IMG/VR virus record: IMGVR_UViG_3300043410_001741
Coordinates: 1-31,053 of that record
Reading direction: 5' to 3' (one strand)
From: a virus
DNA: 31,053 nucleotides
The translations under genes and the position numbers were made by a program. The notes below the pieces were generated by a model. The model had not been told where the DNA came from. It did not search any database and was given only the letters and a program-made list of their open reading frames with translations. Below, in pieces: positions 18,614 to 29,559 of the stretch (its first letter is position 1; each line of letters begins with the position of its first letter).

Positions 18614-19980
18614 TTTTTACCTCCGTCTTTTTTGGCCTTGTCTGCCTTGCCAATTTCGCTGCCAATCAGCGAGTTGGGGCTGCGCTCGCCCATCACCTCC
18701 GTGAAGGACCGACCGTCGGACTCCAGGTGCGCGTGCTTGCCTGTGAACTCTTGCCAGCGGGTGACGATCACGTCGCAGTATTTTGGGTCCAACTCCATGA
18801 GCCGTGCAACCCGGCCGTTTTTCTCGGCTGCGATCAGGGTGGTGCCTGAGCCGCCAAAGCTGTCGAGCACGATGTCGCCGCCCTTGGTGTTGTTGAGCAG
18901 CTGGTACTCGAACAGGGCCACGGGCTTCATGGTCGGGTGCTCGCCGTTGCGGGCTGGCTTGTCGAACTCGAGGATGGTGGTCTGCTTGCGGTCGGACGCC
19001 CATAAGTGGCCAGCGCCTTCCTTCCAGCCGTACAGGCAGGGCTCGTGCTGCCAGTGGTAGTCCTGGCGGCCCATGACGAGCGACGATTTCTTCCAGATCA
19101 GGCACTGGCGCACGGCCCAGCCCGCGTCCTTAGCGGCGCCTCGGAAGTTGTAGCCCTCGCTGTCGGCGTGCCAGATGTAGAACACGGCGCCCGGCTTCAT
19201 GACGGCGTCGGCGGCGGTGTAGGCGTCGCGCAGGAACTGCCGGAATTGGTCGTCGCCCATCGAGTCGTTTTTGATGGTGAGCTTTTCCTTGGTGCCGCCC
19301 TCGTAGGCCACGTTGTAGGGCGGGTCGGTCAGCCATATGTCCACCGGTTGGCCGTCGCACAGGCGCTCCAGGTCTGCGATGCTGGTGCTGTCGCCGCAAA
19401 GCAGCCGGTGCTTGCCCATGACCCAGACGTCGCCCTGGACGGTCACGGGGTTGACCGGAACGGGTGGTGCATCGTCCGGGTCGGTGAGGCCCTCGGGCAG
19501 CTCCTCGGGCATGAGCGCGTCGATCTCGTCCTGGCTGAAACCGGTGAGCTCAACGTCGAATCCCATCTCCATGAGGTCCTTGAACTCCAGCGCCAGCATT
19601 TCGTTGTCCCACCCGGCGTTCAGGGCGAGGCGGTTGTCGGCCACGATGTAGGCGCGTTTCTTGGCCTCGGACCAGCCCTTGGCGACCATGACCGGGACCT
19701 GGGTCATTCGCAGGCGCTGTGCGGCCAACGTGCGGCCGTGTCCGGCAATGATGCCGCCTTGCTCGTCGACCAGGATCGGCGTGGTCCAACCCCACTCTTT
19801 GATCGAGGCCACCAGCTGCCCGATCTGCTCATCGGAGTGGGTGCGGCTGTTGCGTGCGTAGGGGATCAGTTTTTCGATCGGCCAGTGCTCGATTTTGTCG
19901 GCAGGATTTCCGGTAAGGATTTCGCCGGTAATTTGTGGGGATTGATTTTCCCCTGTTTTTTCAGTCTGCTGTTTTTTCAT
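18610..19980 (-). CDS. ParB-domain / DNA methyltransferase fusion, 456 aa
   Basis: Residues 31-110 form a ParB/sulfiredoxin-like domain: WPIEKLIPYARNSRTHSDEQ (33-52) and IIAGHGRTLAAQRL (77-90), where GHGR is the typical ParB box. The C-terminal part (about 184-425) is an amino-methyltransferase of the beta arrangement, with the catalytic motif TDPPYNV (218-224) before the SAM motif VLDSFGGSGTTLIAAE (371-386). The enzyme methylates adenine-N6 or cytosine-N4 in DNA. No cognate restriction enzyme lies nearby, so it may protect phage DNA or mark packaging sites; the ParB part may guide it to DNA. The start ATG at 19980 has GGAG 6 bases upstream; a TTG four codons earlier is less likely. It overlaps the terminase-small gene (ATGA), suggesting a packaging link. 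Confidence 0.92.
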   Translation of the reverse strand: MKKQQTEKTGENQSPQITGEILTGNPADKIEHWPIEKLIPYARNSRTHSDEQIGQLVASIKEWGWTTPILVDEQGGIIAGHGRTLAAQRLRMTQVPVMVAKGWSEAKKRAYIVADNRLALNAGWDNEMLALEFKDLMEMGFDVELTGFSQDEIDALMPEELPEGLTDPDDAPPVPVNPVTVQGDVWVMGKHRLLCGDSTSIADLERLCDGQPVDIWLTDPPYNVAYEGGTKEKLTIKNDSMGDDQFRQFLRDAYTAADAVMKPGAVFYIWHADSEGYNFRGAAKDAGWAVRQCLIWKKSSLVMGRQDYHWQHEPCLYGWKEGAGHLWASDRKQTTILEFDKPARNGEHPTMKPVALFEYQLLNNTKGGDIVLDSFGGSGTTLIAAEKNGRVARLMELDPKYCDVIVTRWQEFTGKHAHLESDGRSFTEVMGERSPNSLIGSEIGKADKAKKDGGKK

Positions 19981-20157: not shown

Positions 20158-20382
20158 AAAGTAAAAAGTCTTTTAAAATCAAGGGGTTGCATCATTTTTC
20201 GATCCTGTGCCAAACGGGTTTTATCCTGTGCCGGCACAAGATGCATCCTGTGCCAAACGCAAAAATCAGAAGGGTTCCGAGTCGCTCTCCCAATCGTGAC
20301 GTAGCCGGATCCCGGTAAAAAGGTTCAATCTTGTGCCAAAACCCTCCGTGGCACAGGATGGATCGGCCTTCGATCCTGTGCC
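20037..20382. other. Iteron-like cluster: candidate replication origin
   Basis: The octamer CCTGTGCC (or its complement GGCACAGG) occurs nine times: 20038, 20048, 20139, 20149, 20204, 20225, 20247, 20350 and 20375 (start positions). Two near copies are at 20233 and 20330. In seven of the nine it extends to ATCCTGTGCCA. By chance about 0.01 copies are expected in 346 bases. The cluster fills the 285-base gap between the primase and the methyltransferase and continues into the last 117 bases of the primase gene. It includes A/T-rich stretches (about 20157-20185) that could open easily. Such layout, iterons next to a primase-helicase gene, is typical of phage and plasmid origins. An alternative is a multi-site operator or a methylation-sensitive control region. 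No other open reading frame is supported in 19981-20265. Confidence 0.7.
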
Positions 20383-22917
20383 AGAAGCGCGTGGTTGGCT
20401 GCGCTTGATGCCCGGGAAAGCGGCCGAAAGCTGCCGTCCAAACGACACTTTGGTGCCTGCGTGATCGCGGCCTTGGGCCTCGCACCACTTCTTCCAAGCC
20501 TTGAAAAGCTCGTCCCGATCGACCTGGGCGTGCTCGCTGACGACGCACATTTCGTCGGCAAACGCCCGGATCGGACTGGTCTGATCGACCAGGTCGGAGG
20601 CCAGCTCGTCGGCTGATTTGGGGCGCTGGAAGTACCCGCGTTGGTTCAGGCGAAGCAGGCCGTCCAAGGCCCACAGGACGATGCCAGGCAGCTCCTTGAG
20701 CAGTCGGTCGGTCAGGCCATGGTCCTCGCGGCCCAAAAAGCTCGTGTTGAACTTGAAGGGCAAAAACCGGTTGGCCAGGGCGGCCGAGGCGTCCGAGAAG
20801 GCGGGCAGCTCGTTGGAGGCCAGAACGAAGCGGATGGCCATCTTGCCGGACCAGGCGGTCATGTTCTTGCGGTCGATCGTGATCGTGTCCTCACCAGAGA
20901 TCCGCAGCAGGTTCTCGACGATCGGCTGCTGGTCGGCCCGGCCGGACAGGCGCGCGTCCGAGATCATGGCCAGGCGCTTGCCGATCAGGGGTTGCAGGCC
21001 AAACTGCGTGCCCAAGGAGGCCAGGCTTGGGCTCACCCGGTTGGCGTACCCCACCAGGGCCTCGAGAATGCGCAAAATCGTGCCCTTGCCGCAGCGCGGG
21101 GGGCCGATGAGCATGAACATCTTTTGCTGGCTGGTGTCGTCGGTCAGCAGGTAGCCGAAGACCTCGGCCAGGGTGGAGATCGACTCGGGGTCGTCTGGCC
21201 AGAGGCTTTGCAGGAATTTCAGCCACTCGGTGGGCTCGCTGGCGCTGGGGTCGTAGTCAAACGCCAAGGACGAGACGCAAAAAAGGCGGTCCGTCGAGGG
21301 CATGATGGTCCGTGTGGGGTGGTGCAGAAACCCGTTTTTGAAGGCCACGATCTCGTGGGCCGGAAAGTCGCCTGGTTTCGGGTCGATCCAGACCTGAGGC
21401 TCGGGCAGGTCGGCGTAGCAAACCGCGCGCAGGGCGTGGGCCACATCGTTGACCGTGGAAGTCTTGGGGTTGAAGGCCACCGTCTCGCTGTCGCCCGTCT
21501 TGGGGTTGACCTTGAGGGTCAGACACCCGGCCATGAAGTGGTAGAGGCGCTGGTCGATGTAGACCCGGTCCCGGGTGACGTAGCGCGTGGCGTCCCAGCT
21601 GTAGAACTCGCCGCGCCAGTGCAGGATGCGCCCAGCCTCGGGCAGGGTGTCGTGGAACAGGGTGGCGGTTTTCATCGGCGAGGATGAAAAAATCATCGGC
21701 TGATCGTGGCTGTCCGGAGGAATGTCGTCCGGCCCGTCGTCGGGCGGGGGTGGGTGGCCAGCGCCGCCAGAGGAGTACTCCGGGGGGTGGGCAAAAGGGT
21801 GGGCAGATTCTGCAAAGCGTTCTGCAGATTCTGCGGAATGGTTCTGCAAAGGCACATCATCCCATGGCGCACCTTCGGGCCCGTCGTCACCAGGTGGCGG
21901 GGTCTCAGGCTCATCTGGTGAGCCTGCCTTCATGATGCCGTCCTCGACTGCCGCCAAGCCCTCGGCCAGGTGCAGGTCGTTGAAGTCGGTACCGGTGCCC
22001 CGGTCCACAGACCACAGGGGGATTGCCACCAGGGCGTTGATTTCTCGCGCAGCCTTGCGGGCGTCGGTGATGCCCGGATTGCCTTTGGTTTGGAAATCGT
22101 CGTCGGCCGCGATCACGATTCGGGCGTCGGGTAAGGCCGCGCGGATTTTGCGGGCGACCGGCGCCAGGTTGCCAGAGTTGAAAGCGACCACCACGCAGTG
22201 CCCGGTGGCCATGCGGATGGAGCAGCAGGTGGCCCAACCCTCGGCGATGATGACCGTACCCTGCTTGTCGGGCTTACCCAGGACGGTGTAGGCGCCGCCG
22301 GACGGAGTGCCTTTCAAAAACAGCTTGGTGCCGTCGGACTTGATGCGCTGCAGGCCGACCAGGGCGCCGGGGCCGTGACGCATGGGGATGAGCAGCTCGT
22401 CGGCCAGCTGGCGGGCGCCCTCGGGCTCGATCAGCTTTCGTTGGGCGTAGGGGTGAACGGTTGGGGTGCTGGCCCGGGCCCACATCTCGGCGGCGCGTTG
22501 GGCGGCCAGCTCGCGCTCGATGCGCGCTGCGGTTTCCTCTTCGGCCATCCGGGCCTCGCGCTCAGCGATGCGGCGGGCACGTTCTTCGGGGTCGACCGGC
22601 TTGCGGTCCTGGGCGGTGGATTTGTAGCCGCCCTCTTTGGCCAGGGCGATCAGGGTGCCGATCGTGGCGCGGTTGGTGCCGCCGCCGGGCTTGCACGATT
22701 TCCAGACGTCGCGCGCGTCGCGGGGGTTGTAGTTCGAGCCCTGCTGGCTCCAGGCGTCCCAGGCATCAAAGGCTGGCTCGCCGAATTCTTCTTTGAGGAT
22801 GAAGGCCATCTTCACCCAGGTTTCGCGGTCATCGACGCCGCGAACGAATGAGAGCATTCTCTCTGCTGTCTCAAGGGAAATGGGATCCCTTTGCCCTGTT
22901 GGTTTTTTTGTTGTCAT
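20266..22917 (-). CDS. P4-type primase / SF3 helicase, 883 aa
   Basis: A multi-domain replication protein. Residues about 15-85 match the PriCT-2 primase C-terminal-type domain (TWVKMAFILKEEFGEPAFDAW, with YNPRDARDVWKSC). A Toprim-like segment follows: VIIAEGWATCC near 224 and VIAADDDF near 270. Residues about 560-790 form an SF3/D5-type helicase: LIGPPRCGKGT (Walker A, near 602), ISDARL, and RFVLASNELPAF (sensor). It probably makes primers and unwinds DNA at the nearby iteron cluster. The C-terminus is WESDSEPF, acidic and ending Pro-Phe, like the SSB tail. The start is ATG 22917; a GTG at 22980 would add 21 residues, and neither has a clearly better ribosome site. The last 117 bases carry three of the CCTGTGCC-type repeats. 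Confidence 0.9.
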   Translation of the reverse strand: MTTKKPTGQRDPISLETAERMLSFVRGVDDRETWVKMAFILKEEFGEPAFDAWDAWSQQGSNYNPRDARDVWKSCKPGGGTNRATIGTLIALAKEGGYKSTAQDRKPVDPEERARRIAEREARMAEEETAARIERELAAQRAAEMWARASTPTVHPYAQRKLIEPEGARQLADELLIPMRHGPGALVGLQRIKSDGTKLFLKGTPSGGAYTVLGKPDKQGTVIIAEGWATCCSIRMATGHCVVVAFNSGNLAPVARKIRAALPDARIVIAADDDFQTKGNPGITDARKAAREINALVAIPLWSVDRGTGTDFNDLHLAEGLAAVEDGIMKAGSPDEPETPPPGDDGPEGAPWDDVPLQNHSAESAERFAESAHPFAHPPEYSSGGAGHPPPPDDGPDDIPPDSHDQPMIFSSSPMKTATLFHDTLPEAGRILHWRGEFYSWDATRYVTRDRVYIDQRLYHFMAGCLTLKVNPKTGDSETVAFNPKTSTVNDVAHALRAVCYADLPEPQVWIDPKPGDFPAHEIVAFKNGFLHHPTRTIMPSTDRLFCVSSLAFDYDPSASEPTEWLKFLQSLWPDDPESISTLAEVFGYLLTDDTSQQKMFMLIGPPRCGKGTILRILEALVGYANRVSPSLASLGTQFGLQPLIGKRLAMISDARLSGRADQQPIVENLLRISGEDTITIDRKNMTAWSGKMAIRFVLASNELPAFSDASAALANRFLPFKFNTSFLGREDHGLTDRLLKELPGIVLWALDGLLRLNQRGYFQRPKSADELASDLVDQTSPIRAFADEMCVVSEHAQVDRDELFKAWKKWCEAQGRDHAGTKVSFGRQLSAAFPGIKRSQPRASGTGSKADPSCATEGFGTRLNLFTGIRLRHDWESDSEPF

Positions 22918-22979
22918 ACCTGGCGTCTGTTGGCTGGCGACTGAAAAAGGTGGGGGCGACCCGCGCCAGGGTTGGGCCA

Positions 22980-23000
22980 CCTCGGATAGCTAATCCGAGG
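22980..23000. repeat. Perfect 8-bp hairpin in the primase leader
   Basis: CCTCGGAT and ATCCGAGG on the minus strand flank a 5-base loop (TAGCT). It lies about 10 bases after the predicted transcription start and 60 bases before the ATG. No T-tract follows, so it is more likely an operator or a structured leader than a terminator. Confidence 0.6.
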
Positions 23001-28192: not shown

Positions 28193-28443
28193 ACACGAAG
28201 CTCCTGATCACCGCCCGCCGCCTCTGGTGCGTGGGCCACGCCGACCGGGCCACGCAGCGGGCCAATATGCGCAAGTGGGTGCGCTCGGTGCGTCTGCTCG
28301 GCAGCCGCTGGATCATGGCCGCGCCCGAGCCCAAGCTGGCCACGCCGATCGCCGACGGCAAGCTCTCCAGCCTGGTGCTGCCCTTCCCCCTGCGCACGCC
28401 GCGCAGCCTGCACGAGGCCTACGAGGCGCGGAGGCAGGCATGA
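28189..28443 (+). CDS. Small basic unknown protein, 84 aa
   Basis: Begins MNTKLLITARRLWCVGHADR and is strongly basic (ATQRANMRKWVRSVRLLGSRW), so may bind nucleic acid. AAGGAGC precedes it and it is ATGA-coupled at both ends. No family recognised. Confidence 0.7.
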   Translation: MNTKLLITARRLWCVGHADRATQRANMRKWVRSVRLLGSRWIMAAPEPKLATPIADGKLSSLVLPFPLRTPRSLHEAYEARRQA

Positions 28444-28817
28444 GCGAAACAGCCGAGCGCATGGCCTACACGTGCACCAGGTGCAACGGCACGGGCCGGT
28501 TTTCGTTTAATTTGATGCACGGCACCAAGTGCTACGGTTGCAACGGCTCGGGCAAGCAATACACCAAGCCTCGCGCGCCCACACCAAAGTGGGCCGTATT
28601 TGGCCAGCACCGCCAGACCGGCGAGTGGCTTCGGCTCTACAACGTGGTGGCGCGCTCGAAAAACGCAGCTATTGAACGCGCCCAAAACATGTACGCCCAG
28701 GCCAGCACGACCTGGAAGGACACCTACACCCTGGCCAACGCCAGGGCCCTTAAATGGTCCGACATGGCCAGCCTCGACGCGCTGAGCTGGGCCGATGCAA
28801 CGAAGGAGAGCACATGA
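28440..28817 (+). CDS. DnaJ-type zinc-finger protein, 125 aa
   Basis: Two CxxCxGxG boxes, CTRCNGTG (12-19) and CYGCNGSG (31-38), form a DnaJ-like zinc site, as in the central domain of DnaJ but with only one pair of boxes and no J-domain. The rest contains WAVFGQHRQTGEWLRLY and a helical SKNAAIERAQNMYAQA region, then LANARALKWSDMASL. It may be a chaperone-type or nucleic-acid adapter; function unknown. The start is coupled to the 84-aa gene by ATGA. Confidence 0.8.
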   Translation: MSETAERMAYTCTRCNGTGRFSFNLMHGTKCYGCNGSGKQYTKPRAPTPKWAVFGQHRQTGEWLRLYNVVARSKNAAIERAQNMYAQASTTWKDTYTLANARALKWSDMASLDALSWADATKEST

Positions 28818-29299
28818 AAATCATCGAGAAGTTTGAGCAGTCGCTCAAGAGCAAGCGAGACGCGATCGCGCACCTGGAGGACCTGAAACCCAAGTTCGAG
28901 CGCCTGGGCAAGGTCACGCGAATCATCGAGAAGTTCGCGCCGGTCAGCTACGTTTTCCTGGACACCCGGGTGATCATCCGGGTCGACGTCAAAACGATCA
29001 AAGAGGTCGAGCCCGTCTTGGAGGTTTTGACCGAAGAGCTGGGCGCCGAGTTTGATCGCACGCACGACGAGGCCAGCCTTGGCTGGCGCGAGTTCAGCTC
29101 CAGCAACGTGCCCTGGCTGCGTGTTGATGCCGAGCTCAAAGGCGAAGGCCCCGAATGCCGCCGCGTGATTGTGGGCTACGAGCAGAAACCGGTCTACGAG
29201 ATCAGGTGCGGCGACGAGGCGGCAGCGCCAGATGCAGCGCCACCGATGGCACCAGAAGTGCCGCCAGCGCCCACCACAGAAGAAGGAGTGCCATTCTGA
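28814..29299 (+). CDS. Unknown early protein with an SSB-like C-terminal tail, 161 aa
   Basis: ATG at 28814, with AAGGAG 6 bases upstream and an ATGA overlap. Begins MKIIEKFEQSLKSKRDAIAH, with a globular core of alternating strands and helices to about residue 135. Then follows an Ala/Pro-rich linker (AAAPDAAPPMAPEVPPAP) and TTEEGVPF. An acidic tip ending in V/I-P-F after a flexible linker is the arrangement of bacterial SSB (DDDIPF). No OB-fold signature is evident in the core, so it may be a functional analogue of SSB or a protein that mimics the tail to bind host repair proteins; inference. Confidence 0.7.
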   Translation: MKIIEKFEQSLKSKRDAIAHLEDLKPKFERLGKVTRIIEKFAPVSYVFLDTRVIIRVDVKTIKEVEPVLEVLTEELGAEFDRTHDEASLGWREFSSSNVPWLRVDAELKGEGPECRRVIVGYEQKPVYEIRCGDEAAAPDAAPPMAPEVPPAPTTEEGVPF

Positions 29300-29559
29300 T
29301 GAACGACTTAGATATCTGGGCCTTCCCCAGCCACGGCAGCATGGGTGAAGTTGTGCAGGAGGGCATGACCCTGCGCGACTACTTTGCAGCTCGAGCTTCA
29401 GAGGAGGATATTCAGCGCCATTTGTCAGGAATGGTGAAAGTGATTGTTGGGCAAAACGAAAAAGGTCCAATTTACGAACACCAACAAGCGTTTCGAAGCC
29501 GAGAGCAAGCTCGATACCGTTGGGCCGACGCCATGTTGGAAGCCAGGAGAAATACATGA
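29299..29559 (+). CDS. Small unknown protein, 86 aa
   Basis: Begins MNDLDIWAFPSHGSMGEVVQ; start overlaps the preceding stop (TGATG). The end, EHQQAFRSREQARYRWADAM, is helical and basic. The GMTLRDYFAARA motif occurs in other small phage proteins of unknown role. ATGA overlap with the next gene. Confidence 0.75.
   Translation: MNDLDIWAFPSHGSMGEVVQEGMTLRDYFAARASEEDIQRHLSGMVKVIVGQNEKGPIYEHQQAFRSREQARYRWADAMLEARRNT

Follow-up and report, generated by a model that had tools for sequence, protein, structure and literature searches.

An SSB-like C-terminal tip on P0001, an optional early-operon protein of an IMG/VR virus

Among the T7-type single-stranded DNA-binding proteins (SSBs), gp2.5 ends in a terminal phenylalanine. 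An acidic disordered C-terminal tail is described for SSBs of the PF10991 family (PMC5686142), the family of Enc34 ORF6. In SSB the change of the penultimate proline to serine is reported to disrupt the binding of SSB partners (PMC10018359), and the last seven SSB residues are reported to be what RecT proteins read and depend on (PMC10711431). Furthermore, the acidic C-terminal tails of the T7 helicase are described as contacting T7 polymerase (PMC8472574).

The stretch of DNA analysed here (the window) is 31,053 bases long and constitutes a virus record of IMG/VR. Its minus strand encodes a portal protein, a terminase, a D5-type primase-helicase, a ResIII helicase and a ParB-methyltransferase, and a weak Cro/repressor match lies near the point of transcription divergence. 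The early operon runs rightward from about 27.4 kb and includes the gene of P0001, for which the original prediction had proposed an SSB-like design on an unrecognised core. The features needed below are as follows.

20266..22980, minus strand: D5-type primase-helicase with the end ...DWESDSEPF, the second acidic Pro-Phe tip of the window
28440..28817, plus strand: preceding zinc-finger-like gene, about 125 aa, putatively assigned from its Cys pattern and a relative's weak DnaJ_CXXCXGXG match
28814..29299, plus strand: P0001, the protein under study, 161 aa
28814..29212, plus strand: conserved core of P0001, residues 1-133, delimited by the relatives' alignment and low-confidence models
29213..29278, plus strand: Ala/Pro linker of P0001, residues 134-155, variable (in length too), predicted disordered
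29279..29296, plus strand: acidic tip EEGVPF of P0001
29283..29288, plus strand: AAGGAG, a Shine-Dalgarno-like word (putative function) within the codons of the tip and 10 nt upstream of the ATG that follows
29299..29559, plus strand: gene after P0001, 86 aa, differing between relatives; its ATG overlaps the P0001 stop (TGATG)

The translation of P0001 ends in ...GDEAAAPDAAPPMAPEVPPAPTTEEGVPF, an Ala/Pro linker being followed by TTEEGVPF. Codon-position GC fits a gene and the frame is preserved in nine relatives, so that the open reading frame and its tail are real, as originally described. The core is slightly acidic overall (23 K+R versus 25 D+E) and contains 11 aromatic residues; residues 1-43 are net basic. 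The protein also stays unrecognised: at E up to 10, no family and no SSB or defence match came from Pfam, PHROGs, NCBIfam or PADLOC, and the single match among PDB sequences (E 1.2) was taken as chance. No match was obtained by tblastn in named phages and plasmids, and no relative in a scan of genome contigs or in a profile search of 398 Pseudomonadota genomes, the latter run without a positive control. The profile found nothing below E 1 among the ORFs of nine RecT-bearing genome loci (L056 not among them) or of four related phage loci.

All nine relatives are IMG/VR contigs, 77-99% identical. The same nine contigs were the only ones found by the profile among the ORFs of 115 viral loci (next best E 0.23), and viral scans with other peptide patterns led to them again. 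The highly conserved core is kept in nine of nine, and two types of tip occur: [DE]EGVPF (group A, the window with four relatives), and [PS]E[DE]F, which lacks Pro-Phe, in the other five. A terminal phenylalanine with acidic neighbours is found in 10 of 10 sequences of the family and Pro-Phe in half only. It had been stated at the outset that relatives conserving the core but not the acidic Pro-Phe end would speak against the SSB-like design; five of the nine relatives are of this kind and four are not. Judged from the aligned sequences, the SSB-like ending does not define the P0001 family.

Two AlphaFold2 models, of the full-length protein (mean pLDDT 64.5) and of the core alone (63.2), are both of low confidence but agree in a helix-bb-a-bbb arrangement, in which a long N-terminal helix is followed by a pair of strands, a second helix and three more strands. 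The predicted elements, at this low confidence, are helix 2-38, strands 44-49 and 52-58, helix 62-76 and strands 100-109, 112-122 and 125-131, and the tail 135-161 is predicted to be disordered (pLDDT <50). Fold searches with these models returned background matches only; MYST acetyltransferases, designed ferredoxin folds, PulL and Mediator were at this level and no function was drawn from them. SSBs or other OB proteins were not recognised among the fold matches listed, which does not imply their exclusion. As far as sequence search and such models reach, the analysis agrees with the original statement that the core does not look like a typical OB fold, and the structure prediction of the core that had been suggested as a check gave no fold match above background.

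The stop of the zinc-finger-like gene overlaps the start of P0001 (ATGA). The slot behind this gene was surveyed in 34 of the 35 loci that carry it (L062-L095; the incomplete L096 was left out). P0001 comes next in 9 of them, a member of a 112-aa family in 14 and a 362-aa protein in 3, while other genes follow in the remaining 8. The 362-aa protein may be a GHKL-type ATPase. Kinship of P0001 with the 112-aa family, judged by eye only, was dropped. A 62-aa ORF lies between the zinc-finger-like gene and P0001 in two of the nine loci. This part of the early operon is variable, with P0001 as an optional cassette, and the presence of its gene in 9 of 34 loci argues for an accessory protein rather than the core SSB of the phage. 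Further downstream in the early operon of one relative lie genes for YqaJ exonuclease, RecT and DUF2303, and a RecT match is present in 9 of the 10 records with a P0001 gene, the window being the record without a match. A PF00436 SSB was found neither in these 10 records nor in 19 related ones (0 of 29, records that may be incomplete), in a search whose control matched in 10 of 14 genomes; at least one related record, that of L151, holds a small DMDDDIPF protein that PF00436 does not find. A search of 16 records for PF10991 gave no match, but its control matched nowhere either. Since records without P0001 are likewise without a PF00436 SSB, P0001 does not visibly fill an SSB gap.

How unusual such an end is was estimated from 9,813 distinct C-termini of six-frame ORFs of at least 50 aa in 115 related viral loci, where acidic stands for an acidic end without K/R in the last seven residues. 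Twenty-three termini end in PF and 438 are acidic; both properties coincide in 8, with about 1 expected by independence, and the acidic Pro-Phe tip is uncommon in these loci. Four of the eight are variants of P0001. The other four belong to a canonical-looking SSB (by eye), to small proteins ending DMDDDIPF and DVDCPF and to an 81-aa protein upstream of RecT. The last (L152:7379-7936, plus strand) has the end SEDPLEEPLPF and lies directly upstream of RecT; none of the 115 loci holds a relative of it. The ends DDDLPF, DDDIPF or DVDCPF were seen on small proteins at L053:8919-9236, L055:7041-7457, L168:92-673 and L151:1908-2288, all on the minus strand; the first has no Pfam match at E 0.01. By their sequences these proteins look SSB-like, outside PF00436.

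The tip codons of P0001 may have a second role as DNA. In group A the junction reads ..GAA GGA GTG CCA TTC TGA TG.., with AAGGAG inside, and in the second group CCG (once TCG) GAG GAC/GAA TTC TGA TG, which contains GGAGGA. A stop/start overlap with a Shine-Dalgarno word is an arrangement described for translational coupling (PMC6728339). Several of the genes after P0001 (window and L001-L009) begin NTGGPAFP...GMTLRDYFAAKA; the junction DNA is the same and the genes differ. Because the following gene differs between several relatives, the junction looks modular. Within group A no synonymous variation was found in the six same-residue codons of the tip, whereas 12 of 15 such linker codons vary (Fisher p 0.0015); against the core (40 of 118), however, the tip is not significantly more frozen (p 0.18). 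The codons GTG CCA TTC do not vary in group A, although they are not part of the Shine-Dalgarno word.

For comparison, 71 neighbouring gene pairs of the early operon from four loci were listed and 60 of them scored (32 with close and 28 with clearly open spacing); the other 11, with other spacings, were left unscored. A Shine-Dalgarno-like word lies within the last eight codons in 24 of 32 close pairs versus 8 of 28 others, two of these eight being the P0001 gene itself, for which the simple caller missed the next gene. The acidic residues among the last eight came to 1.44 for close or overlapping pairs versus 1.64 for the others, and at least two are found in 30 of the 60 scored genes and hence common. 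As close pairs are not more acidic, the overlap can explain frozen codons but not acidity as such, and the Shine-Dalgarno overlap alone was dropped as the cause of the acidic tip.

Two other proteins of this clade carry ends which, judging by homologs and codon usage, are stronger and better-conserved cases of an SSB design than the tip of P0001. The D5-type primase-helicase ends in PF in 10 of 10 homologs with complete ends and 84-100% identity (window; L029-L031, L177-L181, L183), while the four residues before PF vary. Its terminal proline codons are CCT in four, CCA in four, CCC in one and CCG in one. The stop lies at 20266 and the next gene called on the minus strand of the window begins only at 19980, so that no overlap explains this end. 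The PF end is absent from primase-helicase homologs of about 64% identity (L182, L184) and from three named phage primases. For RecT, a word test yielded 46 complete ORFs from 80 loci (L097-L176) with 28 distinct C-termini, of which 27 end in SPI and 26 in DSPI after a variable acidic stretch (e.g. L057:7037-7909, plus strand); the proline codons of the 27 SPI ends are CCC (13), CCG (11), CCA (2) and CCT (1). An SPI end is absent from seven other phage RecTs (L052-L055, L199-L201). The same holds for the ORFs chosen at eight RecT loci of bacteria, of which some may be in a wrong frame. The use of all four proline codons in both kinds of ends points to conservation at the protein level.

We favour, with moderate confidence, the reading of P0001 as an accessory early cassette that is not a demonstrated SSB and whose tip does not define its family. 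It is based on the optional presence of the gene, a tip that is not conserved with the core, frozen tip codons, the AAGGAG or GGAGGA word with TGATG and the missing family match. P0001 would be carried as an exchangeable cassette in an operon running towards YqaJ exonuclease and RecT, and would not be the SSB of the phage. The function would reside in the core, and P0001 would probably be a small early protein of host takeover or counter-defence, a guess drawn from the swapping of genes between relatives in this slot, and the tip of the EGVPF subgroup may be at most a dispensable docking peptide. Against the accessory reading stand the rarity of acidic Pro-Phe ends, which in these loci mark mostly SSB-like proteins, tip codons whose excess of conservation over the core is not significant, with an invariant GTG CCA TTC in group A, and overlapping genes that are no more acidic than others, so that the overlap alone leaves the acidity unexplained. 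The rarity of such ends and their bias to SSB-like proteins lend some weight to mimicry of the SSB tail, which we regard as possible but as the less probable explanation: the EGVPF tail would dock in the SSB-partner pocket of host proteins (RecO, ExoI, PriA, others) or of the phage RecT, as a decoy or adaptor, with EDF as a weaker acidic-Phe variant. P0001 has the SSB architecture of core, variable linker and kept tip, a RecT of the kind reported to read the SSB end (PMC10711431) is encoded in the same operon, conserved Pro-hydrophobic ends occur on further proteins of the clade, and eight acidic Pro-Phe ends where about one is expected count for function, which keeps docking under consideration. 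However, Pro-Phe is missing in five of nine relatives, the reported proline-to-serine change beside the last residue disrupts partner binding (PMC10018359), and the tip codons give no indication of selection on the protein. As a decoy for SSB partners the tip is conceivable in the EGVPF subgroup, although the codons of the tip also form a word resembling a ribosome-binding site.

That P0001 is a new non-OB single-strand-binding protein serving as the SSB of the phage, as was also proposed, appears very improbable. The missing PF00436 SSB in the phages (0 of 29 records), the net basic N-terminal part and the aromatic core residues would fit; but the gene is absent from most loci with the same neighbour, records lacking it also lack a PF00436 SSB, and the core is slightly acidic and without fold similarity above background. 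P0001 as a true SSB was dropped because the gene is optional. A distributed SSB hub seems unlikely too, if less so: in this clade, where no PF00436 SSB was found, RecT (...DSPI), the D5 primase-helicase (...EPF) and, in some members, P0001 (...EGVPF) would all end in SSB-tail-like peptides and be competitors for a single pocket, which would lie on host SSB partners or on the surface with which RecT reads the SSB tail. If true, replication, annealing and a swappable modulator would be tied together. A tail that resembles the one of SSB should, on an unrecognised protein, be checked relative by relative and at the codon level, because stop/start overlaps place ribosome-binding words in the C-terminal codons of dense phage operons. 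The RecT and primase-helicase ends, conserved beside freely varying sequence, offer a concrete and cheap test of whether phages equip their recombination and replication enzymes with SSB-like docking peptides that would recruit host SSB partners.

Among the papers listed in the literature searches, none was recognised as describing a phage accessory protein or a primase that mimics the SSB tail. With the bacterial SSB (PF00436) P0001 has in common the layout of a folded core, a linker predicted to be disordered and, in the window and four of nine relatives but not in the other five, an acidic Pro-Phe tip. It differs in that an SSB-family match is missing at E up to 10, as is any PF00436 match in the window record, that no OB fold is recognised in the low-confidence models (pLDDT 63-65), that the gene is optional and that the tip of five relatives is without proline. 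The acidic disordered C-terminal tail is also a likeness to the T7-type SSBs (gp2.5, Enc34 ORF6/PF10991). In contrast to these, P0001 has no Pfam match, and its predicted topology opens with a long helix and forms no recognised OB barrel; in the T7-type barrel a long helix follows strand 2, and a helix follows the second strand in the low-confidence P0001 models as well, but no such structure is among the matches listed. Finally, the T7 gene 4 primase-helicase has an acidic C-terminal end (PMC8472574), as does the primase-helicase of the window, which is however of the D5 type, another helicase family, and ends in Pro-Phe.
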